From contig QMSI01000008.1 in NCBI GenBank assembly GCA_003649615.1, positions 1 through 34,366 of the forward strand: a stretch of DNA of 34,366 nt, given 5' to 3'. Shown here piece by piece: positions 1,120-18,179 of this stretch. The stretch's first letter is position 1. Every line of letters starts with the position of its first letter. The notes beneath the pieces are model-generated. The model ran no database searches. It was not told the origin of the DNA and worked only from the letters and a program-made list of their open reading frames with translations. This stretch comes from Thermoprotei archaeon (lineage in GTDB: Archaea; Thermoproteota; Methanomethylicia; Nezhaarchaeales; B40-G2). Made by a program: the position numbers and the translations under genes.

Positions 1120-1158
1120 TCTTTATTAACTAGTAGAGGTGAAAATTTATGTGGGATT

Positions 1159-2533: not shown

Positions 2534-2619
2534 AATCCACCCTTACTCCCATACCTAGAAAAGCCTAAAAAACGTAGCCTCTGCTCTTAGAGCCCTAGAG
2601 GTGGCTTAAGCTGAGCTGG

Positions 2620-3123: not shown

Positions 3124-4405
3124 GAACCCCTTTAACGAAGTCCTGGCCATCGATGCAGTAACGAACAGTGTTGAAGTCAGCCAATAGTTTATGTACCTCT
3201 TCCTTGATCCTTTCAGGCTCCTCTCGTTTAATGAGAAGCCTCCACATCAGCTCGGCTATGGTTTCCATCTCCCTCTCCTTCATACCCATTCTCGTTACTT
3301 CCTGCGTCCCTATCCTGACCCCTGAAGGGTTGTGTACTTTTCCTACAGCATCCCACGGAAGCAGGTTCCGGTTAACAATTATATCAGCCTCCTCCAGCCT
3401 CCTAGCAGCCTCTCCTCCCCCTCCAAGCTTTGAAGCCTCGAACACTACTTGATGTGACTCCGTGAAGCCTCTATGTGCACCGAGAACGTTTATCCCGTAG
3501 TCGTGGAGTGCCTTAGCCAGTGTCTTAGCGTTCCTAACTATCTGTGTCGCGTACTCCTTACCGTAGAGAAGCATTTCAAGAAGTGTGACAGCGAGGCTGG
3601 GTAGCCGAGCTAAGTGATGATTGGACACTAGGCCTGGAAACACGGCCTTCTTGACCTTTCTAAATAACGTTTCATCGTTAGCCAGCAGCATACCTCCTTG
3701 CGGGCCCGGAAAGGTTTTATGGGTAGAGGATGAAACGACGTCAGCCCCTTCCTTTAAAGGATCTTGGAAGACCCCTCCAGCCACCAAACCTAACACGTGG
3801 GCAGCATCATAGTGTATGAGGGTGCCATAGGGCTCAGCTATCTTTCTTATCTCCTTCACAGGGTGGGGAAACAGGATTAAGCTTGCTCCAAGCGTTATGA
3901 GGTTCGGCTTCGCCTTCTCCACGACGCTGGCTAAGGCTTCTAGGTCTATGTTCATGTCCTCATGGTTGAAGGGAATGCTGTACACCTTCAACCCTCTACA
4001 TCCAGCTGCTCCAACCTCTCCGCAGCTAATATGGCCACCAGCAGGTATAGAAAGGCTGAGGAGAACATCCCCTGGCTTGGTCAGGGCAAAGAAGACCGCT
4101 AGGTTGGCGAGAGCTCCCGAGATAGGTCTAACATCGACGAAGTTGGCGTTAAATACTCGAGATGCCAACTTGATGCATAGGTCTTCGATAAGGTCTATTA
4201 ACCCCCCTCCTTGGTATTCCCTGTCGTAAGGTTCGCCCTCAGCATATCTATGGTTGAAGTCGCTGGGTAGAAGAGCCCTAGCGAGGGGGCTCATCTTATT
4301 TTCACTAGCGATCAAGTTAAGCGTCGATCTACCACGCCACTCCTCCTGTTTTTGAACAGTCTCGACGATTACTTTCAACTCAGAGAGAGCTTCTTCCAGG
4401 TCCAA
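3101..4405 (-). CDS. glyA: Serine hydroxymethyltransferase
   Basis: This PLP enzyme of the cytoplasm converts serine to glycine and passes a one-carbon unit to a (methano)pterin or folate carrier. The 434-residue protein is the usual length. It shows STLNLIASENKMSP (about 27-40), NHRYAEGEPYDREYQGG, the PLP-contacting HYDAAHVLG (D200, H203), and the Schiff-base lysine K230 in SSSTHKTFPGPQGG. The TTG start sits 2 bases after the stop of the upstream dehydrogenase gene and has AAGGAGGT 6 bases upstream, indicating translation from the same mRNA. It is the last gene of the minus-strand group led by the AbrB-PhoU gene. Confidence 0.96.
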   Translation of the reverse strand: MDLEEALSELKVIVETVQKQEEWRGRSTLNLIASENKMSPLARALLPSDFNHRYAEGEPYDREYQGGGLIDLIEDLCIKLASRVFNANFVDVRPISGALANLAVFFALTKPGDVLLSLSIPAGGHISCGEVGAAGCRGLKVYSIPFNHEDMNIDLEALASVVEKAKPNLITLGASLILFPHPVKEIRKIAEPYGTLIHYDAAHVLGLVAGGVFQDPLKEGADVVSSSTHKTFPGPQGGMLLANDETLFRKVKKAVFPGLVSNHHLARLPSLAVTLLEMLLYGKEYATQIVRNAKTLAKALHDYGINVLGAHRGFTESHQVVFEASKLGGGGEAARRLEEADIIVNRNLLPWDAVGKVHNPSGVRIGTQEVTRMGMKEREMETIAELMWRLLIKREEPERIKEEVHKLLADFNTVRYCIDGQDFVKGVLKAFFER

Positions 4406-4407
4406 GC

Positions 4408-5430
4408 TTAAACCTCCTTAAGCCTCCTTGCTATATCCCTAGCTAGGTCCATGGTACCCGAAGACCCTCCGAGGTCTGGAGTTAGAGCAAGCCCTTCCTT
4501 TAAGGCCTCCGTTACTGCTAACTCCAGCTTCCTTGCAGCTTCAGCCTCACCTAGCCACTCAAGCATCAGTTTAGCTGCCAGTATTGTGCTACAGGGATTG
4601 GCTATTCCTTTACCAGCATACTTTGGAGCAGAGCCGTGGACAGGCTCGAAAAGCGCATAGCGCTCTCCTATATTGGCAGCTGGAGCTATGCCCAGACCAC
4701 CTACGAGGGCAGCTGCTTCATCTGATAAGATGTCTCCAAACATGTTAGTAGTTACTATGACGTCAAACTCGTGGGGCCTCCTGATCAACTGCATGGCGCA
4801 AGCATCCACGTACATCTCGTCGAAGGATACTGAAGGATAGCGGGAGGCCACCTCACGACAGGCTTTAGCGAAAAGGCCGCACGTGAGGCGCATGACGTTG
4901 GCTTTATGCACAGCCGTGACTCTACGTTTTCCGCTCCTCTGCTCCGCCATTTTGAAGGCGTATTCAGCTATGCGCCGAGAACCCTTCATAGTTATGGGCC
5001 TTAGACAAACTGCTGCTTCACCAGGAACTACCTCAAACTCCCATCCTTTATACACGTCTTCCGTATTTTCACGGACGATCACGAAATCTATGTCGGGCCT
5101 TAAGCACGGTATACCTGGATAGGCCTTGAAAGGCCTGACGTTTGCGTATAGGTCTAGTAGGAGCCTCAGCTTAACTATGACATCTGCCGCCGACTCTCCT
5201 ACCGGGCCTTTAAGGCAAGCAACGCTCTCCTCTAAGATTACCTTTAAGGTATCCTCAGGTAAAGCCTTGCCATATCTACGTAAGGCTCCATCGCCCGCCT
5301 CCACCTTCACGTATTCCATCTTTAGCCCTTTGCTAACGTCCTGTAAAGCATCGAGTACGTGAAGGGTCGCTTCTATCACTTCCGGCCCTATGCCATCACC
5401 AGGTATGACAGCTATCCTATAACTAGACAT
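4408..5430 (-). CDS. leuB: Isopropylmalate / homoisocitrate dehydrogenase family enzyme
   Basis: This NAD(P)-dependent oxidative decarboxylase acts on a beta-hydroxy acid. The 340-residue protein has the full family pattern: [10 protein letters not shown] (about 9-18), [14 protein letters not shown] with the substrate-binding arginines, [17 protein letters not shown] with the catalytic lysine, the metal-binding [14 protein letters not shown], and [20 protein letters not shown]. Isopropylmalate (leucine) fits the nearby isomerase subunit and condensing enzyme, but homoisocitrate for lysine or coenzyme B chain elongation is equally compatible, so the symbol is provisional. The ATG start has GGAG 4 bases upstream. 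It lies 35 bases after the AbrB-PhoU gene and 2 bases before glyA. Confidence 0.9.
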
Positions 5431-5465
5431 ACGTCTCCGCTTGGACCTTTAAGGCTTGAGGGGGT

Positions 5466-6506
5466 TTAAGGCTTAGCCCTCACAGCCATGGCGTTGGGTG
5501 TAGCTAGGTTAATGGTGACCTCAGCTATGTCAGCACCGTACTCGGCAATTCTACGTAGGCTATCGAGTACGAGGCTTAGGCTGACGATAGACTTCACGTC
5601 TAAGTTAAGCTTGACTAGCTCCTCCACCGTCCTCCTCCCAGCATCCACCGCCTCCACTGACCTGGAGATGCAGTGATGGGCTACTTTAGCGTCAAGCTCC
5701 TCCAATGCCTTGAGAGCCTCGCTATATACTTGGCCAGCAAGCTCGCTTACCTTTAAGGCGTCGTTGAGGGCTTCAGGGCTGAGCTTCCTATCTAGGGCTA
5801 GAGCCATGTAGGCTATCCTAGCAGCATGGTCTGCTACCCTCTCGATACTCTTAGCTACGAGCCTATAACCTAAACAGTCTCTAGGGTTGCCTAACCCGAT
5901 CTCCTCGCTCAACGCACGGTTCTGTACAGCCATCTTGAGCTGCCTAACGATGAAGAAATAGAACCTATCTACCTCATCGTCTCTACTTATGACCTCGCCC
6001 GCTAAGCCTTGATCGCAGTTGGCGTAAGCTGAGATCGCGTCTTTATGCATAGAAGCGGCTATAATACTCATCCTATTGACCGCTTTCTTCACCGGAAGCT
6101 CTGAGTAACCTATTAAACACTGTGTTAATAGCTCATCAGCCGACTCCTCGATGACCTCGACTCCCATGAGCTTCCTCCTCGCAACCTCCTTCAACACCGC
6201 ACGGTGCTTAGAGGTGCCTTGATGGAACCTTATCCTTATCATTTCATGTCCCGTGAGGTAGTATGATATGAAGTTCCTGACCGCTACCTCAGGGTCCATG
6301 GAGGAGGAGACTTCCATGAATGCCTCGATCCCAGGCTCTATCTTAGCTTCACCTCTAGGAACTATGAGGAGGGAGGAGTCTGATTGAGGAATCAAGGTTA
6401 CCTGGTGTCCAGGTTTAAGCCCCACACTCCTAGCCCAGTCCTTAGGTAGGGAAACCACGTAGGTAGCCCCACCAGTAAGCTGGATACGCCTAATCTCTGC
6501 GGACAA
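5466..6506 (-). CDS. AbrB-PhoU fusion, phosphate-uptake-regulator-like protein
   Basis: The 346-residue protein joins a SpoVT/AbrB-type swapped-hairpin domain (about 5-52: IRRIQLTGGATYVVSLPKDW, then GLKPGHQVTLIP) to two PhoU-like helical bundles (about 110-210 and 215-335: ERVADHAARIAYMA and RRIAEYGADIAEVTI). This architecture is common in archaea and is annotated as a phosphate uptake regulator. The AbrB part suggests DNA binding and the PhoU part metal or protein contacts. No Pst phosphate transporter lies nearby; it instead heads a group with the dehydrogenase and glyA genes. The TTG start has GAGGTG with 7-base spacing, and a good TATA box lies upstream. Confidence 0.88.
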   Translation of the reverse strand: MSAEIRRIQLTGGATYVVSLPKDWARSVGLKPGHQVTLIPQSDSSLLIVPRGEAKIEPGIEAFMEVSSSMDPEVAVRNFISYYLTGHEMIRIRFHQGTSKHRAVLKEVARRKLMGVEVIEESADELLTQCLIGYSELPVKKAVNRMSIIAASMHKDAISAYANCDQGLAGEVISRDDEVDRFYFFIVRQLKMAVQNRALSEEIGLGNPRDCLGYRLVAKSIERVADHAARIAYMALALDRKLSPEALNDALKVSELAGQVYSEALKALEELDAKVAHHCISRSVEAVDAGRRTVEELVKLNLDVKSIVSLSLVLDSLRRIAEYGADIAEVTINLATPNAMAVRAKP

Positions 6507-6550
6507 GGTAGAACACCTCTTTACACTACTTAGTAAGTTATAGAGGCTAC

Positions 6551-6559
6551 ATATAAAAG
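6551..6559 (-). promoter_or_regulatory. TATA box of the AbrB-PhoU / dehydrogenase / glyA group
   Basis: CTTTTATAT on the minus strand, preceded by TAAG, lies about 50 bases before the TTG start. It predicts a leader of roughly 20-25 bases that contains the GAGGTG ribosome site. It separates this group from the upstream condensing-enzyme gene. Confidence 0.6.
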
Positions 6560-6631
6560 CTTAGCGAAGTATATGCTTAGACATTATCCCTCAAGAGAGC
6601 TGGGGGCAGAGAAGATTGTTACTTTTCAGGC

Positions 6632-7840
6632 TTATTTAGGGCTCCCCAGAATGGAGTTTACGAGCTGAAGGAACTCTTCGTCGCTTAAAGCTGACTTCCT
6701 CTCCTCGCTTATAGACTTGACTGCTTCGGTTATCTTGGTTAATCCTTCCTCGTCCATAGCTATTCCTAGCTCCTCTAGCTTAGCCTTAATGGCATGTCTA
6801 CCTGACAATTTACCTATGACCAGTCTTCTACGCTGACCTACAAGCTCCGGTGGGTAGGGCTCATAGGTAGTGGGGTTGACGATGACGGCGTGTTGATGGA
6901 CGCCGCTCACATGGGCGAAGATATTTTCTCCAGCCACAGGTTTATTGGGATGGACCTTTATCTTGGATATACGCTCCACGAGCTTACATAGCTCGTAGAG
7001 GTGTTCGGTCCTAAACCCACCTATGCCGTAGAGGTTGTGAAGAGCTAAGATAACCTCCTCTGTAGGTGTTACGCCAGCTCTCTCGCCTAGGCCATTCACC
7101 ACTGAAGATATAACGGAGGCCCCCACCTCTATGGCTGCGAGAGAATTCGCTAAGCCTAAGCCATGGTCGTTGTGGCAGTGTATTTCAATAGGCGTGCCCG
7201 GTGGCAGCGCTTCACGGATCTGTTTAACGAGGAACCTCATGGCGCTTGGGTGTATACATCCAAGCGTATCTACTATCCTAGCTCTATCGCAGCCAGCTTC
7301 AATAACTGCCCTAAAGACCTGCTTCAGGAACTCCAGGTCAGTCCTCGTGGAGTCCTCTGCGCTATAAGTTATGTATAGGCCGTGGTCCTTAGCGTACTCA
7401 ACCAGCTCCACGGCTCTTTGAAGATACTCCTCCCTGCTCATCCTCAGCTTAAACTTAAGATGCATATCGGAGGGAGGAAAGGAGAGGACGAGGCCGAAAG
7501 TTTCACACTTTATGACTTCATCTATGTCAGCCTTCACCGCCCTAGCGAAGCCAAAGATCTTAGCCTCCAAGCCCTCCTTAACCAGCCTCCTCAAAGCCTC
7601 CCTCTCTCCCTGCGACGCCGCTGGAAAGCCGGCTTCGATTTGTTGAACTCCCACCAGGTCCAGCATCCTTGCGATAGCTATCTTGTCCTCAGGCCTGAAG
7701 ACGACGCCAGGAGTCTGTTCACCTTCTCTCAACGTGGTGTCATGTATGATGACTTCGCTCGGCAGCTTCATGAAGGCCCTCACTTCTGGGTGGAAGTTAA
7801 GAGGGCTTACCACCACTTTACTAGCGATGTCTGGGTTCAA
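6632..7840 (-). CDS. 2-isopropylmalate synthase / homocitrate synthase family enzyme
   Basis: This enzyme condenses acetyl-CoA with a 2-oxo acid to begin leucine, lysine or 2-oxo-acid chain-elongation synthesis. The 402-residue TIM barrel has HDTTLREGEQTPG (33-43 onward), metal-ligand HCHNDHG followed by LGLANSLAAIEVGA, NGLGERAG, and SGVHQHAV. It ends without the leucine-binding regulatory domain of long LeuA proteins. RIVDTLGCIHP has arginine where LeuA usually has asparagine (NxPDTVG), which leans toward homocitrate synthase; I cannot settle the substrate. TTG at 7840 has GGTG 6 bases upstream; an in-frame TTG at 7855 would add 5 residues but lacks a ribosome site. It is divergent from hisD. 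Confidence 0.9.
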   Translation of the reverse strand: MNPDIASKVVVSPLNFHPEVRAFMKLPSEVIIHDTTLREGEQTPGVVFRPEDKIAIARMLDLVGVQQIEAGFPAASQGEREALRRLVKEGLEAKIFGFARAVKADIDEVIKCETFGLVLSFPPSDMHLKFKLRMSREEYLQRAVELVEYAKDHGLYITYSAEDSTRTDLEFLKQVFRAVIEAGCDRARIVDTLGCIHPSAMRFLVKQIREALPPGTPIEIHCHNDHGLGLANSLAAIEVGASVISSVVNGLGERAGVTPTEEVILALHNLYGIGGFRTEHLYELCKLVERISKIKVHPNKPVAGENIFAHVSGVHQHAVIVNPTTYEPYPPELVGQRRRLVIGKLSGRHAIKAKLEELGIAMDEEGLTKITEAVKSISEERKSALSDEEFLQLVNSILGSPK

Positions 7841-7889
7841 GGGATCCACCTTCAACGATGAAATTCAGCCCTTAGCTACGGGTTGACAG

Positions 7890-7899
7890 CTTTAAAAGC
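7890..7899 (-). promoter_or_regulatory. TATA box of the condensing-enzyme gene
   Basis: GCTTTTAAAG on the minus strand, preceded by AAAA, predicts transcription start near 7869. That gives a leader of about 28 bases holding the GGTG site used by the TTG at 7840. Confidence 0.6.
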
Positions 7900-8018
7900 T
7901 TTTCTACGATATATGTAAAAGAGTGCTTTTACTTAGTTTAAGATGCTTAGTGGAGGATGCGACATAGCTTAAGCCACGTTTAGTCCTTAACGTAGGCTTG
8001 AATACATTTTTAATCAAA

Positions 8019-8027
8019 GCTTTAAAG
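8019..8027 (+). promoter_or_regulatory. TATA box of the histidine operon
   Basis: GCTTTAAAG preceded by AAA matches the element of the divergent gene. It predicts transcription start near 8049, about 20 bases before the hisD start. The 229-base intergenic region (7841-8069) holds both promoters back to back, and I saw no clear operator palindrome in it. Confidence 0.55.
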
Positions 8028-8069
8028 GAAGCTTAGCTAGGCTTTAACCCTAGCTTCACGGTGAAAACA

Positions 8070-9389
8070 TTGAGGGTAGTTGAAGCCTCAAAACTGACCT
8101 CGGAGGAGTATGCTCGTATCGTCAGCCGCGGGGCCCTTGATCTATCCAAGGCCTTAAAAGAGGTTGAGAAAGTCGTCGTGGAGGTTAAGGAGAAGGGCGA
8201 TGAAGCTCTAAAGAGGTTCTCCAAGGAGTTCGACGGCGTCGAGGTCGATCTAGAGAGGTGGAGCTTCAAAGTCGACGAGGAGGAGGTTAAGGAGGCTTAC
8301 CGTGAAGTTGGCGAGGAGGCCTTAGAAGTCATCAGGAGAGCCGTGAAAAACGTCAAGAAATACCATGAGGCTAGGAGGCCCACGAGCTTCTCGGTAAAGG
8401 TGGAAGAAGGCGTAATAGCCGGATCATTGATCAAACCCCTCAGCCGAGTAGGTGTATACGTGCCTAGAGGTAGGTCAGGGTATCCTTCCACCGCCATTAT
8501 GACGGTGGTGCCAGCTAAGGTGGCAGGCGTGAAGGAAGTGTTAGTCTGTACTCCCCCCTTGAGGAACGGTAAAGCCCCCACGTTAACCTTAGTAGCTGCC
8601 ATAGAAGCTGGAGCTAGCCAGGTGTTTAAGGTGGGGGGCGCCCACGCTATAGCTGCCATGGCTTATGGCACCGAGACCATACCTAAGGTAGACAAGATAG
8701 TAGGTCCGGGAGGCCTATACGTCACTGCAGCTAAATTGCTTGTCAATAAAGAAGTTGCCATAGACCTCCCGGCGGGCCCGAGCGAAGTATTGGTAATAGC
8801 TGACGATTCAGCCGACCCAGCCTATATAGCGTTGGACCTCCTAGCTCAAGCTGAACATGATCCTGCCTCCACCTCTATACTTGTCACCACCTCTAAGGAG
8901 TTAGCGATTAAGGTGGTGGAGGAGATCGACCGTAGAAGAGAGGCTTACCCTAAAGGCAGCGCTGAAAGGGAACGGCTAGATAAGAGCTTGGAGGAGAGGG
9001 GATGGATCATTGTCGTTGAAAGCTTGGATGAAGCGGTTAAGATAGTGAACGACTTTGCCCCTGAACATGTGGAGTTCATAGTTAAAGATCCTTTAAGCCT
9101 GCTCGGCGCCGTCAGGAATGCTGGGTCAATGTTCATGGGTGAGTACTCACCCATAGCCATCGGAGACTATGCTGCCGGCCCGAGCCATGTCTTACCTACC
9201 GGAGGGTACGCTAAAGTCTACTCAGGGTTGTCGACGAGAGACTTCGTTAAAGAAGTAGGGTTCATTAACTGTAACGAGGAGGGGATGAAAAGGATAGGAT
9301 GGATAGCGGCTAAGCTAGCCGAGCTGGAAGGTTTTAAGTTACATGCCTTATCGGTGGAGGAGAGGCTGAGGAGGCTGAAGCCTAGTTGA
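8070..9389 (+). CDS. hisD: Histidinol dehydrogenase
   Basis: This zinc enzyme performs the last two steps of histidine synthesis: NAD-dependent oxidation of histidinol to histidinal and then histidine. The 439-residue protein has normal family length. Visible signatures are [47 protein letters not shown], zinc and active-site segment [11 protein letters not shown], catalytic FAPEHVEF (Glu-His pair), and [12 protein letters not shown] chose TTG at 8070 because GGTGA at 8060-8064 is spaced 5 bases upstream. An in-frame GTG at 8061 would add 3 residues but overlaps that ribosome site. It is the first gene of the his cluster and overlaps hisH by 4 bases (TTGA). Confidence 0.97.
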
Positions 9390-9991
9390 AGGTCGCCGTG
9401 GTAGACTACGGCATGGGTAATCTTAGAGGGGTCAAGCTCGCCATAGAAAGAGCTGGGGGAAGAGCTGTCATAACCAATGACCCGGCGGAGGTAACGGAGG
9501 CAGACGCCATAGTCCTTCCAGGAGTAGGGGCGTTTAAAGACGCTATGGAGAGGCTCAGAAGCATTGAAGAGGTAGTGAAAGACCAGATAAGAGCTGGAAA
9601 ACCTTTGCTCGGCATATGCTTAGGACTACAGCTCCTCTTCACGGAGTCTATGGAGGGTGGTTTACATAGAGGCTTAGACCTGTTGAAGGGAAGAGTAGTG
9701 AAGCTTCCTGCAGGTGTTAAGGTTCCACACATGGGCTGGAACAAGGTGAACATCGCTAAGTGGACTAGGTTTGTCGAAGACCTTCCTCAAGGAGCCTACA
9801 TGTACTTTGTCCACTCCTTTTACGCTGATCCCCTCAACAAGGACGTAGTGTTAGCTACGACGGAGTACGGGGTAGAGTTTCCCTCCATCGTCGAGGCCGA
9901 TCCACTATACGCTACTCAGTTCCATCCGGAGAAGAGCGGGAAAACAGGGTTGAAGCTGCTTCGAAACTTCATCAGCATAGCTAAGAGGTGA
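9386..9991 (+). CDS. hisH: Imidazole glycerol phosphate synthase, glutaminase subunit
   Basis: HisH releases ammonia from glutamine and channels it to HisF, which makes imidazole glycerol phosphate and AICAR. The 201-residue class I amidotransferase shows VDYGMGNLRGV at the start, the oxyanion segment PGVGAF, nucleophile C78 in LGICLGLQLLF, PHMGWN, and H180/E182 in TQFHPEKSG. All triad residues are present. The TTG start overlaps the hisD stop as TTGA, so translation is likely coupled. The next gene, hisA, begins within a few bases of its stop. Confidence 0.97.
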   Translation: MKVAVVDYGMGNLRGVKLAIERAGGRAVITNDPAEVTEADAIVLPGVGAFKDAMERLRSIEEVVKDQIRAGKPLLGICLGLQLLFTESMEGGLHRGLDLLKGRVVKLPAGVKVPHMGWNKVNIAKWTRFVEDLPQGAYMYFVHSFYADPLNKDVVLATTEYGVEFPSIVEADPLYATQFHPEKSGKTGLKLLRNFISIAKR

Positions 9992-9997
9992 AAGCAC

Positions 9998-10750
9998 ACG
10001 CTGTTAATACCTTCAGTGGACCTGGTCAAGGGCAAAGTTGTGAGGTTGACTAAGGGAAAGTTGGAGGAAATGAGGGTATACTACGACGACCCTGTAGAGG
10101 CAGCCAGGGAATGGGAGGAGGAAGGTGCCGATGCATTACACGTAGTTGACATCGAAGCAGCTATGGGGATTGGGGAGAACCTTGAAGCCATAGAGAAGGT
10201 GCTCTCCTCGGTTAGCGTTGAGGTCCAAGTCGCTGGAGGTATACGTAGCGTAGAGAAGGCACGTAGATTAGTGGAGCTTGGAGCTACAAGGATAGTAGTG
10301 GGCACGAGGTTCATCGAGAAACCGGAGGAAGTAGCTAGGATCGCAAAGGAGCTTGGCTCCTCTAGAGTAATGGTAGCGCTGGACCACCGTTCAGGCACCG
10401 TCGCCGTGAGGGGCTGGGTAGAACAGACGGGGCTAGATGTCTATGGAATGGCTGTAGAAGCTGAGAAGGCGGGAGCTGGGTGGATACTTTTCACCTCTGT
10501 TGAAAGAGACGGTACGCTTAGCGGATTAGACTTGGCTTCGTTAAACAGAATGGTCAAGTCGGTTAAGATACCGGTAGTGGCGGCTGGTGGAGTAGCGAGC
10601 ATCGAAGATATAGTGAACGCAGCTAAATCAGGGGCAGCGGGTTTAGTGCTGGGCAAAGCGCTTTACGAGAAACGTGTCAAGCTTAGTGAAGCCTTGAGGA
10701 AGCTAGAGGAGCTTGGACTACGCAGGTCACATAGAAGGGGGAAGCCTTGA
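9998..10750 (+). CDS. hisA: ProFAR isomerase, probably with a non-canonical start codon
   Basis: HisA is the TIM-barrel isomerase that converts ProFAR to PRFAR, the substrate of HisHF. The first ordinary start, GTG at 10016, would cut off strand beta-1. Upstream in-frame codons encode LLIPSVDL, which lines up with the usual MLIIPAVDL start and supplies the catalytic Asp as residue 8. Between the in-frame TGA at 9989 and 10016 there is no ATG, GTG or TTG. The GGTGA at 9987-9991 is spaced for ACG at 9998 (6 bases); CTG at 10001 is the alternative. From ACG the protein has 250 residues, with the second catalytic Asp at 129 in VALDHRSG. The GTG version has 244 residues. Gene identity is secure; the start is inferred. 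Confidence 0.95.
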   Translation, partial: TLLIPSVDLVKGKVVRLTKGKLEEMRVYYDDPVEAAREWEEEGADALHVVDIEAAMGIGENLEAIEKVLSSVSVEVQVAGGIRSVEKARRLVELGATRIVVGTRFIEKPEEVARIAKELGSSRVMVALDHRSGTVAVRGWVEQTGLDVYGMAVEAEKAGAGWILFTSVERDGTLSGLDLASLNRMVKSVKIPVVAAGGVASIEDIVNAAKSGAAGLVLGKALYEKRVKLSEALRKLEELGLRRSHRRGKP

Positions 10751-11640
10751 GTAGATTCCTTCAAGCATTGAAAGCTAGGCTAAAGTTGACCAAGCTAGGG
10801 TTAAGCCACGGAAACGACGCTGACGGTATAACGTGCGCAGCTCTCTTCTTACGTAAATATCCAGGAGCCACCGTGGTCTTAGCTGAGCCGTGGGAAATTA
10901 AGCCTACATGGACCTGCTGGTTGAACTGGTTTGCCTGGGACTTCGTAGCCGACCTTCCCTGTCCCTTTAGAGCTAAGCTTCACGTAGATCACCATAAGAC
11001 AGGGAGACCCTGCGCTAAAGTAGAGTTCTATGACCCTGAAGCTCCTTCAGCCGCCTCGCTGGCTTTGAAAGCCTTGCAGCTGGAAAGCGACGAAGAGGCA
11101 GCCAGGTTGGTGGAGCTAGCTAATGAATGCGACACCGCTAAGATAAGGTCTCAGGAAGCTTGGGACCTAAACGATGCGGTAAAAGGTTCAAGGATAGAGG
11201 AAAGGGTAACTTTAGCTAAGCTGCTAGCCATGAAGGGTTTAGCAGCGCTCAGTGAACCTATGGTCAAGGGTTGGATTGAGGTTAACAAGGCCAGAAGGAG
11301 GAAGGTGCAGACGCTCGTTGAGAAGGTGCCTATCGAAGATTTCCTTTTCATTAAGTTAAGGGAGGTTGACGAAAAATTCCCCGTGAGGACCTTCATGCTG
11401 ACGCTCGAGGAGAAAGGAGCTAAGCTAACATGCGTCATCACTCCCAGAAGGAGCAGGTTTAAGGTTCACTTAGGCTCAAGACGTGATAGCGGAATAGACT
11501 GCGCTGAGATAGCCTTTAAGCTAGGGGGTGGAGGCCATAGATACGCAGCGGGAGCTACCGTAGACAACCTCGATGAAGCACTGAGAAGAATAAAGGAAGC
11601 CTTAGGGTTGAAGGAGCTTAAGGTCATGGAGCTCGCTTGA
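10747..11640 (+). CDS. DHH/DHHA1 family phosphoesterase inside the his cluster
   Basis: This 297-residue protein is predicted to be a manganese-dependent phosphoesterase. Motif I is HGNDADG (D24, D26), D69 in ADLP may be motif II, motif III is HVDHHKTG (D81-H82-H83), and NECDT (D130) resembles motif IV. The C-terminal DHHA1 domain carries GGGGHRYAAGA (260-270). Relatives cleave short RNAs, cyclic dinucleotides or other phosphodiesters; the substrate here is unknown. Its TTG start overlaps the hisA stop by 4 bases (TTGA), and hisF follows, so it is co-expressed with histidine enzymes. A role as histidinol-phosphate phosphatase is conceivable but unproven. A tryptophan-rich stretch lies between motifs I and III (see findings). 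Confidence 0.88.
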   Translation: MSRFLQALKARLKLTKLGLSHGNDADGITCAALFLRKYPGATVVLAEPWEIKPTWTCWLNWFAWDFVADLPCPFRAKLHVDHHKTGRPCAKVEFYDPEAPSAASLALKALQLESDEEAARLVELANECDTAKIRSQEAWDLNDAVKGSRIEERVTLAKLLAMKGLAALSEPMVKGWIEVNKARRRKVQTLVEKVPIEDFLFIKLREVDEKFPVRTFMLTLEEKGAKLTCVITPRRSRFKVHLGSRRDSGIDCAEIAFKLGGGGHRYAAGATVDNLDEALRRIKEALGLKELKVMELA

Positions 11641-11685
11641 TGGACGAAAACCGATATTAAGCTGGCCAACTGCTTCATTAGCGCT

Positions 11686-12498
11686 ATGCTGGCGAAGCGT
11701 ATCATCCCCTGCCTCGACATGAAGGACGGTAGAGTAGTCAAAGGAATAAAGTTCCTAAATCTGAGGGATGCAGGCGACCCTCCTACCTTAGCTGCCTACT
11801 ACGAGGAGCAGGGAGCCGACGAAATAGTATTTCTAGACGTTACGGCTAGCCATGAAAAACGCAAGATCCTTGTGGATGTCGTGACAAGGACGGCCGATCA
11901 GCTATCCATCCCGTTCACCGTGGGGGGCGGAATATCCAGCCTCGAAGACATAAAGATCGTGTTACACTCAGGAGCCGATAAAGTCTCTATTAACACCTCC
12001 GCTGTCCAGCAGCCCGAGCTGGTGAAGGAAGCCGCCCAGGTGTTCGGAAGCCAATGCATAGTTGTAGCCATAGACGCGAAAAGAGTTTACGTGGAGTATC
12101 CAAGTCAAGCTCAAGACAAACTTTTAGTCGAGGTAGAGGAAGGGCTTTGCTGGTGGGAGGTATATACCCACGGTGGTAGGAAGCCCACCGGCCTAGATGC
12201 CTTACAGTGGGCTAAAAAGGTAGAGGAGCTTGGGGCTGGAGAGATACTCCTCACTAGCATGGACTGTGATGGCACACAGGACGGCTATGATCTTCCGCTT
12301 ACAAAGACAGTATCTAGGTTAGTCAACATACCTGTGATAGCCAGCGGAGGAGCAGGTTCCCCACACCACATATATGAAGCTTTAACTGAAGGTGAAGCGG
12401 ACGCAGCTCTAGCTGCCTCCATTTTCCACTACGGGAAGTACACAGTCAAGCAAGTTAAAGAGTACTTAGCAGAGCGTGGTGTGGAGGTTAGGATTTGA
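11686..12498 (+). CDS. hisF: Imidazole glycerol phosphate synthase, cyclase subunit
   Basis: HisF is the TIM-barrel cyclase that uses HisH-derived ammonia and PRFAR to form imidazole glycerol phosphate plus AICAR. The 270-residue protein starts [20 protein letters not shown], with catalytic D11, and has D130 in [14 protein letters not shown], and [13 protein letters not shown]. Residues about 136-160 form a longer loop than in bacterial HisF, as in many archaeal versions. The ATG has no ribosome site, but GATATTAA about 31 bases upstream (near 11653) could be a TATA box for a nearly leaderless transcript. The 45-base gap after the DHH gene leaves room for this. It is the last his gene here; hisG, B, C, E and I are absent. 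Confidence 0.97.
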
Positions 12499-12533
12499 AG
12501 GACAACTTATAGACTGCTAAATAACAAGTAAAG

Positions 12534-12541
12534 ATATATAT
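12534..12541 (+). promoter_or_regulatory. TATA box of the DUF2061-like gene
   Basis: ATATATAT in the short gap after hisF predicts transcription start near 12564, so this small gene probably has its own promoter. Confidence 0.45.
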
Positions 12542-12576
12542 AGGAGATAAATAGATTACAGTTGGGGGAGGGCGGA

Positions 12577-12891
12577 GTGGCGACCAAAAACATGGCAAAG
12601 GCACAGGGCAAACTATGCCTAGTAGCCAACTCTAAGGTGTTAGCCAAAACCTTCTCATGGAAAGTTCTAGGTGTATTGACCTTATTCATAGTATCCTACA
12701 TGCTCACTGGCTCACCGGTAGCTTCAGGAACTATCGCCCTAACCTACCACTTACTAAACACAGTTCTATACTATCTTCATGAGAAAGCCTGGGAAGGACA
12801 TCATCCTTCAGTTAAAGCCTTCTTGGCTTCGTTAACTTCCTTCATACTCAGTACGCTGCTACTGGTCTGGCTAGCCTTTCCTACTCCGTAA
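12577..12891 (+). CDS. Small membrane protein, DUF2061-like
   Basis: This 104-residue protein of unknown function resembles the DUF2061 family. A short basic N-terminus (KVLAKTFSWKVLG) is followed by three predicted membrane segments, about residues 27-45 (FSWKVLGVLTLFIVSYML), 49-67 (ASGTIALTYHLLNTVLYYL) and 82-101. The SWKVLG, IVSYMLTG and YYLHEKAW segments are the family signature (usually YYxHERxW). The GTG at 12577 has GGGGAGG about 5 bases upstream; TTG at 12562 would add 5 residues. It ends 14 bases before the convergent coiled-coil gene. Family role is not established. Confidence 0.75.
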   Translation: MATKNMAKAQGKLCLVANSKVLAKTFSWKVLGVLTLFIVSYMLTGSPVASGTIALTYHLLNTVLYYLHEKAWEGHHPSVKAFLASLTSFILSTLLLVWLAFPTP

Positions 12892-12905
12892 ACCTATGAA
12901 CCCCT

Positions 12906-13379
12906 TTAGATGAACACGTCAAGCGTGTTAAACCTCTCTTGGCAGGCTTCCTTGGGGATGTAGCCTTCATCAACCTTTAGCAGCGGAGGCTCACAGCCAT
13001 AATGTTCCTTGCTTGATAGCTGTCTCAGCATCTTAGCTACGGTGGCTCGGCTCGGTGGATCTATACCTACGTAGATGCTCAGCTTGACTGCTTCTCCTTG
13101 AACCTCGCTGGGTTTCACCGGCCTAGAAAGCTTCCTATAGGCTTCGAGAGCTGCTCGATACACGAGCCTCCTCATAGACTCCACGTCGACCCTACGCACA
13201 CCATTATACATGTAAGGATGTTCGTCTAGGTTTAAGTCGGAGGCCCAGTGGGGGAATTGAGCTCCTGCGTTCTTCATAGCCCTAAGAACTCGTTTAAGCT
13301 TAAAGACCTCCGTCTTCAACCTATCATACTGAGCCTTATAGAAGCTTAAAGCTCTCTTGAGCTCCTCTACCTCATCCAA
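12906..13379 (-). CDS. Unidentified coiled-coil protein with a possible DNA-binding tail
   Basis: I do not recognise this 157-residue protein. Residues 1-38 are strongly heptad-like and charged (MDEVEELKRALSFYKAQYDR, then LKTEVFKLKRVLRAMK), which suggests a dimeric coiled coil. A middle part (about 45-90) contains HPYMYNGVRRVD and a helix VESMRRLVYRAALEAYRKL. The stretch SRATVAKMLRQLSSKEHYGC followed by PPLLKVDEGYIPKEA reads like a recognition helix plus wing, so a regulator is possible. It starts with TTG and has a TATA-like TAAATAGT (13429-13436, minus strand) upstream. It is convergent with the DUF2061-like gene and divergent from PGI/PMI. Codon use matches the neighbours. Confidence 0.7.
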   Translation of the reverse strand: MDEVEELKRALSFYKAQYDRLKTEVFKLKRVLRAMKNAGAQFPHWASDLNLDEHPYMYNGVRRVDVESMRRLVYRAALEAYRKLSRPVKPSEVQGEAVKLSIYVGIDPPSRATVAKMLRQLSSKEHYGCEPPLLKVDEGYIPKEACQERFNTLDVFI

Positions 13380-13575
13380 CGAGGACCTGCCTCCACCTCA
13401 AGGAGACAAAAGTACTATGTCCGGTAATACTATTTATCTCCTTGGGGTTGGAGGCTATGTTCATCCATCTTAAGCCCATGTTAAACCTTAACTTGAAGCA
13501 GATAGCCTAGCACAGGCCACTTAACTTTGATAAATTCCTGTTAAGTATAGGTTATAGCGGGCTGGAGGCTGCTCC

Positions 13576-14553
13576 ATGAAGTTGCTTGATCATTATAGAG
13601 AATGGCGGAAAATGGCGGAGAAAATCCTCAAAGAAGAGGTAGAGAACCTTAAGCCCTTGAAGTTCAAGGCAATAGCCTTTACAGGAATGGGCGGCTCAGG
13701 CATAGTAGGCGACTACGTCAAGTCTTTCTTACAGGATGTATCGAGGACCCCCATAATCGTAGTCAAAGACCTTTATTTACCCACTTGGATAGGGAAAGAT
13801 TGGCTAGTAGTAGCAGTATCTTACTCAGGAAATACTTCAGAGACGCTTAGTGCGGTGAAGGAAGCGCTGTCTAAGGAAGCTTACGTAGCAGCGGTATCGT
13901 CCGGAGGAAAGTTGCTAGAGCTGATGGATAAGGAGAGGCTACCTTATGTTAAGGTAGGGGGAGGCTACGCCCCAAGGTCTGCGTTACCTTTACTGCTATA
14001 TGCCAGCTTAAAGCTGCTTGATGAGCTAGGACTAAGCATACCTATGAATCAAGTACAGGAAAGCCTGGATGTGCTGGGAGGAGTAAAGGAGGCTGAAGAC
14101 GAAGGGAAGAGTATAGCTGAAGCACTGAAAGGATATACGCCTATCATAGTGTCCGATGTAAGGTATGAAGCATTAGCTTGGAGGTTCAAGAGCGAGCTTA
14201 ACGAAAACGCTAAGATCGTAGCTAAATGTGAAACAGTTCCTGAATCCATGCATAACGACGTCGAAGGCTACGAGGAAGCCTCATCTAAGTTCAAAGCACT
14301 TCTACTAAGCGCTCATGACGACACGGTCTACACAAAGGTGCTCGAGAAGTTTATTGAAGAGCTTCTCAAGGAAAAAGGGTTTAAGCCGTATAGGCTCGAG
14401 CTTAAAGGTAAAGGTAGGTTGGCTAAACTAATGCACGGCGCTCACGTCGCAGGCTTCACTTCACTATACCTGGCCGAGAAGCGTAAAGTCGAGCCGGTGA
14501 AAGTAGAGCTAATAGCTAGGTACCGAAAGTTCCTCGAAGAAGCTTTACCTTAA
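13576..14553 (+). CDS. Bifunctional phosphoglucose/phosphomannose isomerase
   Basis: This SIS-fold enzyme interconverts fructose 6-phosphate with glucose 6-phosphate and mannose 6-phosphate in archaeal sugar metabolism. The 325-residue protein has two SIS domains, with phosphate-binding GMGGSGIVGDY (37-47) and SYSGNTSET (82-90). E210 (NENAK) and H226 (SMHNDVEGYE) are 16 residues apart, the same spacing as the catalytic Glu203/His219 pair of the Pyrobaculum enzyme. A C-terminal lysine in KRKVEPVKVE would be the third active-site residue. The ATG has GGAGG 7 bases upstream. It lies in the 196-base gap's downstream side, divergent from the coiled-coil gene, and does not share a transcript with hisF. 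Confidence 0.93.
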   Translation: MKLLDHYREWRKMAEKILKEEVENLKPLKFKAIAFTGMGGSGIVGDYVKSFLQDVSRTPIIVVKDLYLPTWIGKDWLVVAVSYSGNTSETLSAVKEALSKEAYVAAVSSGGKLLELMDKERLPYVKVGGGYAPRSALPLLLYASLKLLDELGLSIPMNQVQESLDVLGGVKEAEDEGKSIAEALKGYTPIIVSDVRYEALAWRFKSELNENAKIVAKCETVPESMHNDVEGYEEASSKFKALLLSAHDDTVYTKVLEKFIEELLKEKGFKPYRLELKGKGRLAKLMHGAHVAGFTSLYLAEKRKVEPVKVELIARYRKFLEEALP

Positions 14554-14698
14554 AGCAAGATAGAGCTTAAAGTAAACTTCCAAGTTATTTATATCTCCTA
14601 ACGCATCGAGGCTCAATAGACATGGAAGAGAAACGGCCAGACGAGAGGGAGCCTTATTTAAGAGTGGCAGTATAATAGTATATTTGGAACTAGAGGAA

Positions 14699-14893
14699 AT
14701 GTCCAAGAAACATGAAGTAAGGGAAGAGTTTCTCTGCGAAAAATGCTATATGTTCGATGGATGGGCAGAGCATAGAAATCCCAGGGGGATGAGGCTAGTG
14801 AAATGTAGAGCTATTGATGCATATGTACAACCACCGTATGAGCGCTGTCCTGCTTTTCTTTCAAAAGCTATAGGGATTCAAAGGTCTTCTTGA
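14699..14893 (+). CDS. Small four-cysteine (zinc-ribbon-like) protein
   Basis: This 64-residue protein of unknown function has four cysteines, C13, C16, C36 and C50 (CEKCYMFDGW, VKCRA, RCPAF), that could bind zinc. It is rich in charged and aromatic residues and has no membrane segment. I chose ATG at 14699 because TATAATAG (14671-14678) is about 26 bases upstream and GAGG lies 3 bases before it. An in-frame TTG at 14684 would add 5 residues and could use TTATTTAA at 14654-14661. The 3' end overlaps the convergent endonuclease-IV-like gene by 26 bases. A binding or adaptor role is only a guess. Confidence 0.65.
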   Translation: MSKKHEVREEFLCEKCYMFDGWAEHRNPRGMRLVKCRAIDAYVQPPYERCPAFLSKAIGIQRSS

Positions 14894-15707
14894 GGAAGAG
14901 GGCATCTCCCTCTATGTTAGGCGACTCAGATATTATCACTCCTTCCACGTGAAAGTCCTTTAAAGCCTTAGCTAAAGCCTCATAGTTATAATCGGACTCC
15001 TCCAAGTTAACATGTTTAATCTCGCCTCTCTCTCCATACTCTATGCCCGAGAAATGCATGTGCATGTTCTTTAAACACTCCTCCCCTAGCTCCTTCTCCA
15101 AGAGAATGAAGATGGAAGAGATCTCATCATAGGTGTTGTAGCCGCCGTTAGTCCTCGCATGGAGATGAGCAAAGTCTATACAAGGCAGGACACCTTCTAT
15201 CTCTTGGCTTAAGTCCACCACCTCGTGCAAGTTACCATACTCAGCTAAGCCGCCAGCCGTCTCAGGCCTGACCCATACCGTTACACCCTCGTCTCTAAGC
15301 TCCTTCATCAGTCTTTTCAACGATCTCTTCACTTTTTTATGCACCGCCGAGGGCTCGTCATCACCATAATACGCTGGATGGAAAGTGATAGACCATCCCC
15401 CGCATTTATGAGCCACCCTAGCCGTGTCCATGATGCGTTTAATGCTGGCTTCAACTTTTTCCTCATCCGGTGAGTTAAGGTTTACATAGTAAGGTGCATG
15501 AGCTGTTAAAACGACGTTAACCTCCTCACTCACCTTCTTAACCTCCTCAGTTAGCTTATCGCTCATCCTAACCCCTCTAACGAACTCCAGCTCCATGGCG
15601 TCCAGGCCTAGAGCCTTAACGGTCTTTATGCCCTCTACGCTGGAAGGTTTAGGGCTAGCTATAGGAACCCCAGCGGTGCCGAAGAGGAGGCCTTTAAGCT
15701 TCTGCAA
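14868..15707 (-). CDS. nfo: Endonuclease IV / xylose-isomerase-like TIM barrel protein
   Basis: Endonuclease IV cuts DNA at abasic sites with three zinc ions. The 279-residue protein begins LLFGTAGVPIASPKPSSVEG and ELEFVRGVRMSD, as in archaeal endonuclease IV. Likely metal ligands match the E. coli enzyme in position: H70 (TAHAPYYVNL), H110 (TFHPAYY), E149 (RPETAGG), D178 and H181 (IDFAHLHAR), H216 or H218 (MHMHFSG), H232 and E261 (SESPN). The Asp of the D229-x-H231 motif is not obvious (E229-I-K-H here), so a related sugar-phosphate isomerase remains possible. The TTG start has only a weak GGGAAGAG site. A TATA-like ATACTATA lies at 15736-15743 (minus strand). Confidence 0.85.
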   Translation of the reverse strand: MQKLKGLLFGTAGVPIASPKPSSVEGIKTVKALGLDAMELEFVRGVRMSDKLTEEVKKVSEEVNVVLTAHAPYYVNLNSPDEEKVEASIKRIMDTARVAHKCGGWSITFHPAYYGDDEPSAVHKKVKRSLKRLMKELRDEGVTVWVRPETAGGLAEYGNLHEVVDLSQEIEGVLPCIDFAHLHARTNGGYNTYDEISSIFILLEKELGEECLKNMHMHFSGIEYGERGEIKHVNLEESDYNYEALAKALKDFHVEGVIISESPNIEGDALFLKKTFESL

Positions 15708-15735
15708 GGCTCTTCCCTGATGGAAAAAGGCTTAG

Positions 15736-15743
15736 TATAGTAT
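15736..15743 (-). promoter_or_regulatory. TATA-like element of the endonuclease-IV-like gene
   Basis: ATACTATA on the minus strand is centred 32-33 bases before the TTG start, predicting a leader of only about 7 bases. The rest of the 213-base gap (15708-15920) holds the promoter of the winged-helix gene and no other ORF I would support. Confidence 0.4.
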
Positions 15744-15878
15744 TTCAGCCTTACTTCTCCTTGGCCGTTGATTGAAGTAGACGTAGGGAAGTAGAAGTGA
15801 TGTTAGTCTTTTAATCCTCTGAACACATCAGGTTTGTTCATAGATCTTTGCTCACTTGATTTAGTAGCAGTAGTAAAA

Positions 15879-15886
15879 ATTATAAA
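15879..15886 (+). promoter_or_regulatory. TATA box of the winged-helix gene
   Basis: ATTATAAA predicts transcription start near 15909, 12 bases before the ATG at 15921. This argues against a longer protein starting at TTG 15834, because the box would lie inside that reading frame. Confidence 0.5.
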
Positions 15887-15920
15887 CTCGACTGGCCTTC
15901 CAAATGGCCGGTGTCGGTTC

Positions 15921-16187
15921 ATGTCCGAGCTATACGCTCGTATAATGGCTAACGATGTGCAGAAGGAGATCATAAAGAACTTGAAGGAAGGTGAGAAGAC
16001 CACAAGCCAGTTAACGGAAGCGATCAATAAACTGACCCCTACAGGCATTCCACCCTTAACCGTCTACCTTCAGGCCTGGTTTCTAGAACAGAAAGGTCTC
16101 ATCTCAAGCACGGGTGAAGGGATCGAACGAACCTATAGGCTTACCGATAAGTGGAAGGAGCTGGAGGCCCAGGCCCAGAAGAGTTAA
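15921..16187 (+). CDS. Small winged-helix transcription regulator
   Basis: This 88-residue protein looks like a single winged helix-turn-helix domain. MANDVQKEIIKNLKEGEKTT forms the first helices, SQLTEAINKL and PPLTVYLQAWFLEQKGLI the helix-turn-helix, and ISSTGEGIERTYRLTDK the beta wing. The short helical tail (WKELEAQAQ) could dimerise. It resembles ArsR/PadR-like archaeal regulators; no ligand site is evident. ATG at 15921 has GGTG at 15910-15913, the 7-base spacing common in this window. deoC follows after 35 bases, beyond a T-run, so regulation of deoC is possible but not shown. Confidence 0.8.
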   Translation: MSELYARIMANDVQKEIIKNLKEGEKTTSQLTEAINKLTPTGIPPLTVYLQAWFLEQKGLISSTGEGIERTYRLTDKWKELEAQAQKS

Positions 16188-16190
16188 TGA

Positions 16191-16196
16191 TTTTTT
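16191..16196 (+). terminator. T-run after the winged-helix gene
   Basis: Six consecutive T residues directly follow the stop codon region. Archaeal transcription often ends at such runs. No hairpin is visible. Confidence 0.3.
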
Positions 16197-16222
16197 CAAA
16201 GGTTATTTTGTTTGGACCTTAA

Positions 16223-16933
16223 ATGGGTGAGCTAGGCGATTTTCTAAAGCTTACGTTGAAAGAACTCCCTTCTCTAATCGACTACTCAGTGCTTAGACCG
16301 GAAGCTACACTCAGCGACGTGGAGAAAGCATGCTACGCTGCTTTAAAATATGGCTTCGCGGCGGTGTGCGTTAACTCTTTCCACGTTGACTTAGCGTACT
16401 TCCTCCTAAAAGGAAGCCCAGTTAAAGTATGCGTTACCGTGGGCTTCCCGTTGGGGGCTACGCTTAGCGAGGTTAAGGCCTATGAGGCAGCTGAAGCTGT
16501 ACATAGAGGAGCGAGGGAAGTAGATTTCGTAATTAACCTAGGCCTAATAAAATCAGGCTGCTTCAAGGAGGCTCTAGGCGATGCTAAAGCTGTGGTAGAT
16601 GCTGTAAGATCAGCGGAGCCAGAAACGGTCATTAAGATGATAATTGAATCTAGGCTGCTAAACATGGAAGAAAAAGCGTTAGCCTGTAGGGTAGCGAGGG
16701 AGGCCAAAGTAGACTATGTTAAGACCTGTACAGGCTTTACGTCCTGTCAAGCCCATCCTGATGACGTGGTGCTTCTCACGAAGCTTGCTCCGGGCTTGAA
16801 GATCAAGGCGTCGGGAGGGATAAGGACCCTGAGCCAAGTCTTAGCCTTAGTGAAAGCTGGAGCATCAAGGATAGGTACGAGCTCCGCTGTGGAAATAATG
16901 CTTGAAGCCCAGCGAGCCTTGCCTACAAATTAA
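16223..16933 (+). CDS. deoC: Deoxyribose-phosphate aldolase
   Basis: This class I aldolase reversibly splits 2-deoxyribose 5-phosphate into glyceraldehyde 3-phosphate and acetaldehyde, in deoxynucleoside breakdown. The 236-residue TIM barrel matches the family length. It has LIDYSVLRPEAT near the start, VCVTVGFPLGAT, D101 in EVDFVINLG, the Schiff-base lysine K167 in VDYVKTCTGF, and K195 in LKIKASGGIR, corresponding to D102, K167 and K201 of the E. coli enzyme. The ATG lacks a ribosome site, so the transcript may be leaderless. The tRNA-Val gene follows 86 bases downstream on the same strand. Confidence 0.96.
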   Translation: MGELGDFLKLTLKELPSLIDYSVLRPEATLSDVEKACYAALKYGFAAVCVNSFHVDLAYFLLKGSPVKVCVTVGFPLGATLSEVKAYEAAEAVHRGAREVDFVINLGLIKSGCFKEALGDAKAVVDAVRSAEPETVIKMIIESRLLNMEEKALACRVAREAKVDYVKTCTGFTSCQAHPDDVVLLTKLAPGLKIKASGGIRTLSQVLALVKAGASRIGTSSAVEIMLEAQRALPTN

Positions 16934-16989
16934 GATTACGCGCTTAGTACAGGGTATGAAGCACCTTAGGATTAATGAACCAGAAAAAG

Positions 16990-16997
16990 CTTTTATC
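16990..16997 (+). promoter_or_regulatory. TATA box of tRNA-Val
   Basis: CTTTTATC preceded by AAAAAG is centred 26-27 bases before the first tRNA base, the spacing expected for archaeal stable RNA promoters. Confidence 0.65.
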
Positions 16998-17019
16998 ACG
17001 TTTGAGACCGAGCTCTAAC

Positions 17020-17093
17020 GGGCCGGTCGTCTAGCTGGTTAGGATAACCGCCTTACACGCGGTTGGTCCCCGGTTCGAACCCGGGCCGGCCCA
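17020..17093 (+). tRNA. tRNA-Val (anticodon UAC)
   Basis: The 74-base cloverleaf is complete. Acceptor GGGCCGG pairs with CCGGCCC, followed by discriminator A. The D stem is GTCT/GGAT, the anticodon stem ACCGC/GCGGT with loop CTTACAC (anticodon TAC at 17054-17056), and the T stem CCCGG/CCGGG with loop TTCGAAC. CCA is not encoded and there is no intron, both normal for archaea. Its 3' end lies 90 bases from the axis of the inverted repeat. Confidence 0.97.
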
Positions 17094-17273
17094 TAATTTT
17101 CTCGCCATCTGAAAGGTGGCAGCTCTAACTTTCAATCTCACCGCTACTTAAAATGTCATACCAGTCTCTATAAGAATGTACCTAGGTACATTCTTATAGA
17201 GACTGGTATGACATTTTAAGTAGCGGTGAGATTGAAAGTTAGAGCTGCCACCTTTCAGATGGCGAGAAAATTA
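17094..17273. other. Axis of symmetry and gene-free centre
   Basis: These 180 bases lie between the two mirrored tRNA-Val genes. The axis falls in CCTAGG at 17181-17186, inside GTACCTAGGTAC (17178-17189). Each half holds 90 unique bases downstream of the tRNA, starting with a short T-run that could end tRNA transcription. I see no ORF, integrase fragment, or copy of the tRNA 3' end here. The true continuation of the genome beyond 17183 is not represented in the window. Confidence 0.95.
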
Positions 17274-17347
17274 TGGGCCGGCCCGGGTTCGAACCGGGGA
17301 CCAACCGCGTGTAAGGCGGTTATCCTAACCAGCTAGACGACCGGCCC
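17274..17347 (-). tRNA. tRNA-Val (UAC), mirror copy
   Basis: Identical to the tRNA at 17020-17093. The two lie tail to tail, 180 bases apart, only because of the inverted duplication. Confidence 0.95.
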
Positions 17348-17369
17348 GTTAGAGCTCGGTCTCAAACGT

Positions 17370-17377
17370 GATAAAAG
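17370..17377 (-). promoter_or_regulatory. TATA box of tRNA-Val, mirror copy
   Basis: Same CTTTTATC element as at 16990-16997, on the minus strand. Confidence 0.6.
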
Positions 17378-17433
17378 CTTTTTCTGGTTCATTAATCCTA
17401 AGGTGCTTCATACCCTGTACTAAGCGCGTAATC

Positions 17434-18144
17434 TTAATTTGTAGGCAAGGCTCGCTGGGCTTCAAGCATTATTTCCACAGCGGAGCTCGTACCTATCCTT
17501 GATGCTCCAGCTTTCACTAAGGCTAAGACTTGGCTCAGGGTCCTTATCCCTCCCGACGCCTTGATCTTCAAGCCCGGAGCAAGCTTCGTGAGAAGCACCA
17601 CGTCATCAGGATGGGCTTGACAGGACGTAAAGCCTGTACAGGTCTTAACATAGTCTACTTTGGCCTCCCTCGCTACCCTACAGGCTAACGCTTTTTCTTC
17701 CATGTTTAGCAGCCTAGATTCAATTATCATCTTAATGACCGTTTCTGGCTCCGCTGATCTTACAGCATCTACCACAGCTTTAGCATCGCCTAGAGCCTCC
17801 TTGAAGCAGCCTGATTTTATTAGGCCTAGGTTAATTACGAAATCTACTTCCCTCGCTCCTCTATGTACAGCTTCAGCTGCCTCATAGGCCTTAACCTCGC
17901 TAAGCGTAGCCCCCAACGGGAAGCCCACGGTAACGCATACTTTAACTGGGCTTCCTTTTAGGAGGAAGTACGCTAAGTCAACGTGGAAAGAGTTAACGCA
18001 CACCGCCGCGAAGCCATATTTTAAAGCAGCGTAGCATGCTTTCTCCACGTCGCTGAGTGTAGCTTCCGGTCTAAGCACTGAGTAGTCGATTAGAGAAGGG
18101 AGTTCTTTCAACGTAAGCTTTAGAAAATCGCCTAGCTCACCCAT
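17434..18144 (-). CDS. deoC: Deoxyribose-phosphate aldolase, mirror copy
   Basis: Identical to 16223-16933: 236 residues with Schiff-base K167 in VKTCTGF. No substitution separates the copies, which argues against an old duplication. Confidence 0.93.
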   Translation of the reverse strand: MGELGDFLKLTLKELPSLIDYSVLRPEATLSDVEKACYAALKYGFAAVCVNSFHVDLAYFLLKGSPVKVCVTVGFPLGATLSEVKAYEAAEAVHRGAREVDFVINLGLIKSGCFKEALGDAKAVVDAVRSAEPETVIKMIIESRLLNMEEKALACRVAREAKVDYVKTCTGFTSCQAHPDDVVLLTKLAPGLKIKASGGIRTLSQVLALVKAGASRIGTSSAVEIMLEAQRALPTN

Positions 18145-18170
18145 TTAAGGTCCAAACAAAATAACCTTTG

Positions 18171-18176
18171 AAAAAA
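18171..18176 (-). terminator. T-run after the winged-helix gene, mirror copy
   Basis: Mirror of the T-run at 16191-16196. Confidence 0.3.
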
Positions 18177-18179
18177 TCA

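Follow-up and report, generated by a model that had tools for sequence, protein, structure and literature searches.

The DNA analysed here, a stretch of 34,366 nucleotides referred to below as the window, carries a run of histidine biosynthesis genes on the plus strand in the order hisD, hisH, hisA, DHH gene, hisF, in which the DHH gene encodes a DHH/DHHA1 phosphoesterase. The genes of the locus are:

6632 to 7855, minus strand: leuA-like gene (isopropylmalate/citramalate/homocitrate synthase), divergent from hisD
8061 to 9389, plus strand: hisD, histidinol dehydrogenase (TIGR00069, 509.9 bits)
9386 to 9991, plus strand: hisH (TIGR01855, 240 bits)
10016 to 10750, plus strand: hisA (TIGR00007, 232.4 bits, above the cut-off)
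10747 to 11640, plus strand: DHH/DHHA1 phosphoesterase gene, TTG start, 297 amino acids, 4-base TTGA overlap with hisA
11686 to 12498, plus strand: hisF (TIGR00735, 401.8 bits)
22727 to 23620, minus strand: identical duplicate of the DHH gene, an artefact of the palindromic contig

The placement of the DHH gene between hisA and hisF, and its 4-base overlap with the hisA stop, had been noted from the sequence alone and are confirmed by the open reading frame coordinates: the hisA stop and the TTG start at 10747 share the bases TTGA, and 45 bases separate the end of the DHH gene from the start of hisF. In the orthologue of G001, a genome that belongs to the same family (f1) but to another genus, the TTG start is matched by an ATG at the aligned codon, with an MSR(F/L)LQA context in both. 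The source genome of the window (G000), from a Thermoproteota archaeon judging by its relatives, is a 1.58 Mb draft in 170 contigs that is 94% complete, and the window itself consists of two arms of 17183 bases that form a perfect inverted repeat, positions 1-17183 being the reverse complement of 17184-34366. Assembly or amplification produced this repeat as an artefact in which every gene is present twice, the DHH gene included. The linkage is real despite the palindrome, since G001 keeps hisA-DHH-hisF; the arrangement is found in both available genera of f1, and is not a one-genome accident. A tRNA-Val (TAC) lies near the palindrome centre (17020-17093), and a sigma-70 and terminator scan, with models ill-suited to archaea, gave results near chance level.

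The DHH protein is matched by Pfam DHHA1 (PF02272) with 33.6 bits against a cut-off of 25.9, while Pfam DHH (PF01368) stays below its gathering score (19 against 28.1 bits). With the DHH motifs readable directly, this sub-threshold score marks a divergent member, and the threshold is not a defining feature. The conserved positions, numbered in the window protein and compared across 34 orthologues, are:

10807 to 10824, plus strand: motif I, H21-x-x-D24-x-D26; D24 and D26 invariant in 34 of 34 orthologues
10951 to 10953, plus strand: motif II, D69; invariant in 34 of 34
10987 to 10995, plus strand: motif III, D81-H82-H83; invariant in 34 of 34
11002 to 11004, plus strand: G86 (N86G in DHHxxN); Asn in 32 of 32 orthologues outside the family of the window
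11131 to 11133, plus strand: motif IV, D129; invariant in 34 of 34
11524 to 11538, plus strand: DHHA1 motif GGGGH, residues 260-264; invariant in 34 of 34

R214 and G243 are also invariant in the 34-sequence alignment. In motif I, residue 21 varies between His (11 of the 34 orthologues) and Asp (23), and the substrate-binding Arg of motif VI, which is R245 in the window protein, is Arg in just 11 of the 34. Judging from these motifs, an active enzyme is expected. Going by its homologues NrnA and PyapApase, in which two divalent metals are held by motifs I-IV (PMC8268124), a two-metal site formed from D24, D26, D69, H82/H83 and D129 would activate a water molecule and cleave the phosphoester, and the DHHA1 motif GGGGH, together with R245, would hold a nucleotide substrate. 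Short RNA oligonucleotides or linear dinucleotides are the likeliest substrate class, with pAp as a possible second; the sequence does not single out one substrate, because R245, although found in the window protein, varies across the subfamily. The N86G change is common to both his-linked f1 copies (G000 and G001), and no other orthologue has Gly at this position. Private changes at near-invariant positions are also carried by other families (four in f2, one in f3 and one in f9), so N86G alone would not indicate a functional shift, and it keeps alive, at low probability, the possibility that the enzyme was recruited to a new role in f1.

When a profile of the protein was compared with solved structures, the best match was TmPDE (TM1595; PDB 5o1u, 5o4z; E 2.6e-13), followed by a RecJ-like protein (8ioo), PggH and NrnA/Rv2837c. 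All of these are DHH/DHHA1 proteins, and their names or descriptions identify TmPDE, PggH and NrnA as nucleotide or dinucleotide phosphodiesterases or phosphatases. TmPDE can be aligned through DHHxxN and GGGGH, although it is distant from the window protein, whose family has DHHxxG. NrnA, the bifunctional oligoribonuclease-PAP phosphatase (COG0618; PDB 5j21, 5jju, 5cet), shares the standalone DHH-DHHA1 architecture, motifs I-IV and a GGGH-type motif, and its substrate Arg corresponds to R245; in contrast, the subfamily does not conserve this Arg, the solved NrnA chains are longer than the window protein by about 40 residues, and the window protein scores 18.7 bits on the NrnA equivalog model NF053633 against a cut-off of 350. 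This model gives weak matches (E <= 0.01) in 8 of the 34 orthologues and strong matches in none. Another likeness is to the NrnB/COG2404 clade and its archaeal arCOGs, which are active proteins with the standalone DHH-DHHA1 architecture of the window protein and are predicted nanoRNases (PMC3307487, PMC12709177), a prediction that has been made for the COG2404-type archaeal proteins (PMC3307487). NrnB (COG2404) is defined by 3'-5' exonuclease polarity on short RNA and by no cleavage of c-di-AMP (PMC12709177); the 3'-5' polarity is a biochemical criterion, and the window protein is at most a putative member. Overall, the DHH protein appears to be an unremarkable, somewhat divergent representative of an enzyme kind already known. 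HisF structures were weakly matched by profile positions 167-226 (E 0.018 and worse), which was taken as chance, a structure prediction from two sequences (window and L015) had a mean pLDDT of 44.9, and a protein-level search against plasmids returned no match.

An HMM built on ten orthologues was searched against 398 Thermoproteota genomes and gave strong matches in 69 of them, belonging to 14 families. In a tree, f1, f2, f3 and f9 were joined with full support and sequences were grouped largely by family, as would be expected of vertical inheritance; the branch leading to f1 has no unusual length and gives no long-branch sign of a shift. At the sensitivity of Pfam, the DHH protein is the only DHHA1 protein besides AlaRS in G000 and G001, and a general role would fit for this reason. 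No DHHA1 protein of GAN/RecJ length was found in either of these genomes, and the f1 counterpart of the replication protein Cdc45/RecJ may be lost or too diverged. The f3 genomes hold several DHHA1 proteins, including separate ones of about 485 amino acids, a GAN-like length.

Gene neighbourhoods differ between these families. Among the 14 orthologue-bearing families, 13 have lost the his linkage, and f3 alone of these has the gene near a his operon, where it is part of a leuA operon. In this family (G004, G005, G008) the DHH gene is last in a leuA-leuA-DHH run, with its start 3 bases beyond leuA in G005; in G004 and G005 a divergent his operon of hisZ-G-D-C-B-H, accompanied by hisA and hisF, lies next to this run, and the his genes lie on a different contig in G008. 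The his operon opposite this run at the f3 loci L018 and L020 includes a HisZ-like gene, and the divergent leuA/his arrangement of f3 is retained in the window. Elsewhere, with gene names assigned by eye, the orthologue adjoins a TrmO-like gene in f2, follows a peptidase-like (ArgE/DapE-like) gene in f9, lies by glmS and an AglB-like gene or by others in f18, and has varied neighbours in f30, f34, f52, f55, f57, f47, f62 and f66. No recurrent partner across families was found at 30 loci, some of them cut short by contig ends, a set that leaves aside the f37 locus (G118, a fragmentary match). A tblastn search of 29 loci with eight his proteins and leuA found no his clusters beyond f1 and f3. 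The order hisA-DHH-hisF occurs in just the two f1 genomes, and the expectation that relatives would conserve the his neighbourhood does not hold, the f3 gene being merely near a his operon.

The distribution of the gene was also compared with that of hisB, sought as PF00475 in the same 398 genomes. Both the DHH orthologue and hisB were present in 42 genomes, the DHH orthologue only in 27, hisB only in 233 and neither in 96, a co-occurrence no better than chance (Fisher p = 0.12; odds ratio 0.64, in the wrong direction), where the counts are of species and not of independent events. The 27 of 69 DHH-bearing genomes that lack hisB include all 13 f34 genomes, and hisD too is absent from the 16 of them with a completeness of at least 90%, several of these being assembled in one or two contigs. 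This retention of the gene without hisB and hisD is the strongest argument against a dedicated histidine role. Family f6 is an example in which hisB is present and the DHH orthologue was not found. In G003 (f3, 93% complete) both are absent; this co-absence was rejected as support for a functional link, as loss of the whole neighbourhood explains it equally well at the DNA level, where next to nothing in G003 corresponds to the f3 leuA-DHH/his region (one short 75-base match).

In histidine biosynthesis itself, the absence of a recognisable histidinol-phosphate phosphatase, which had been a premise for proposing the DHH protein in this role, is borne out among the G000 candidates scanned, none of which reaches the curated cut-offs of the HisB-N/HAD, HisJ/HisK-PHP or IMPase-HisN models. 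The G000 PHP protein scores 31 bits on the HisJ family model against 90.2, the IMPase-like protein 85.5 on the HisN model against 275, and the HAD proteins fit best to phosphoglycolate-phosphatase or CTE7-like models. The IMPase-like candidate is encoded at L030:2330-3139, and HAD candidates at L028:4565-5305 and L029:6973-7710. In the 16 genomes searched, nothing exceeded the TIGR01656 cut-off, and PHP and IMPase-like proteins are common. This gap is common and not peculiar to G000, as HisN is the commonest low-confidence step in GapMind, in 28% of 148 prototrophs (PMC7311316). One lineage has a good candidate for the step, a 393-amino-acid HAD protein encoded between hisC and hisB in G047 (L093:7983-9164, minus strand), which has relatives in G054 and G042 and no match in the family of the window (G000, G001).

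Several other roles for the DHH protein were weighed. The one proposed in the sequence-only reading, a lineage-specific histidinol-phosphate phosphatase, could now apply to f1 only, where an old DHH enzyme would have been recruited to the step and hence fixed in the his operon. The hisA-DHH-hisF order in both available f1 genera, the lack of a known phosphatase type over cut-off among the G000 proteins scanned, the N86G change beside the DHH motif in these two copies and nowhere else, and the failure of the G047 HAD protein to match in G000 or G001 are all consistent with such recruitment. Against this, orthologues at 52-62% identity share the catalytic motifs yet sit elsewhere, the subfamily persists without hisB and hisD and is missing from most hisB genomes, and the PHP, IMPase-like and HAD proteins of G000 could do the step. 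HAD-, PHP- and IMPase-type histidinol-phosphate phosphatases have phosphate removal in common with the DHH protein, and the genes of some lie within or close to his operons, but their folds are unrelated to it, and none of their models (TIGR01656, TIGR01856, TIGR02067) matches it. The characterised DHH/DHHA1 enzymes in the surveyed literature all act on nucleotides, and no literature linking DHH proteins to histidinol phosphate was found. Because the linkage is lost in relatives, an outcome that the sequence-only reading had itself set against its proposal, and the gene is kept where hisB and hisD are absent, the phosphatase role is not supported, and in its f1 form it is quite improbable; marginally less credence is given to the fuller version, in which the protein would be a fourth fold for this step and N86G, near the metal site, part of the shift. 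The same loss of linkage and retention without hisB and hisD weigh on the related proposal that the protein clears a phosphorylated by-product of the pathway (pyrophosphate from HisG/HisE, or AICAR-related nucleotides), serving the operon indirectly. The operon position suits this role, and family II pyrophosphatases do belong to the DHH enzymes (PMC3307487); family II pyrophosphatase and Ppx1, however, have DHHA2 (PMC3307487), which was sought with Pfam in the window protein and found absent, with DHHA1 instead, and the f3 orthologue is attached to leuA, of a pathway without such by-products. By-product clearance is therefore very improbable.

Two further alternatives stay within nucleotide chemistry. 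A dedicated pAp phosphatase, as opposed to an oligonucleotide phosphodiesterase, is suggested by PyapApase of Pyrococcus yayanosii (PYCH_17540), an archaeal DHH-DHHA1 phosphatase with metal-binding motifs as in the window protein and a substrate-binding Arg, shared with NrnA, that aligns with R245 (PMC8268124). This Arg is required in PyapApase but is not kept in the subfamily of the window protein, and PyapApase genes lie in sulfate-assimilation clusters (PMC8268124), as opposed to the lack of any recurrent neighbour here; such a dedicated role is unlikely. A GINS-associated replication nuclease of the RecJ/Cdc45 type would share the DHH superfamily, and 3 of the 34 orthologues weakly match the archaeal RecJ model. 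The window protein has no match to this model (RecJ_archaeal), the conserved S15/S3/Pcc1 neighbourhood of archaeal RecJ/Cdc45 (PMC3307487) was not recognised at any of the 30 loci read, and the DHHA1 proteins of about 485 amino acids coexist with the orthologue in f3, all of which makes this identity extremely unlikely.

The gene is best explained, with a probability of about 0.78, as encoding a standalone DHH-DHHA1 nucleotide or oligonucleotide phosphodiesterase/phosphatase of the NrnA/NrnB/pApase/TmPDE kind, which was put in the his operon by rearrangement. The nanoRNase-like protein caught in the operon, offered by the sequence-only reading as its alternative, fits the data, and that reading is, overall, partly supported. 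Under this explanation a vertically inherited Thermoproteota subfamily without a fixed neighbourhood would have had its f1 member set between hisA and hisF, where the gene would probably be co-expressed with the his operon and take no part in any step of histidine synthesis. Points that may count against it are the NrnA score far below its cut-off, the motif VI Arg in a minority of orthologues, N86G, which no family but the his-linked one has, and the retention of the linkage in two genera of that family. The case shows how a gene tightly placed and translationally coupled in an operon can mislead when one family alone is read: its orthologues in sister families are tied to leuA or to other, unrelated genes, and they outlive the histidine pathway. 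Were recruitment in f1 true, a step left unassigned in many genomes would gain a new enzyme fold. For the histidinol-phosphate phosphatase step in these Thermoproteota, a better kind of candidate is the HAD protein between hisC and hisB in G047. Another possible histidinol phosphatase is the PHP protein of G000 (L026:144-878, YcdX/PolX-like, 245 amino acids), which has a relative in G001; each lies near a gene of about 350 amino acids, and these two neighbouring genes look alike in sequence.
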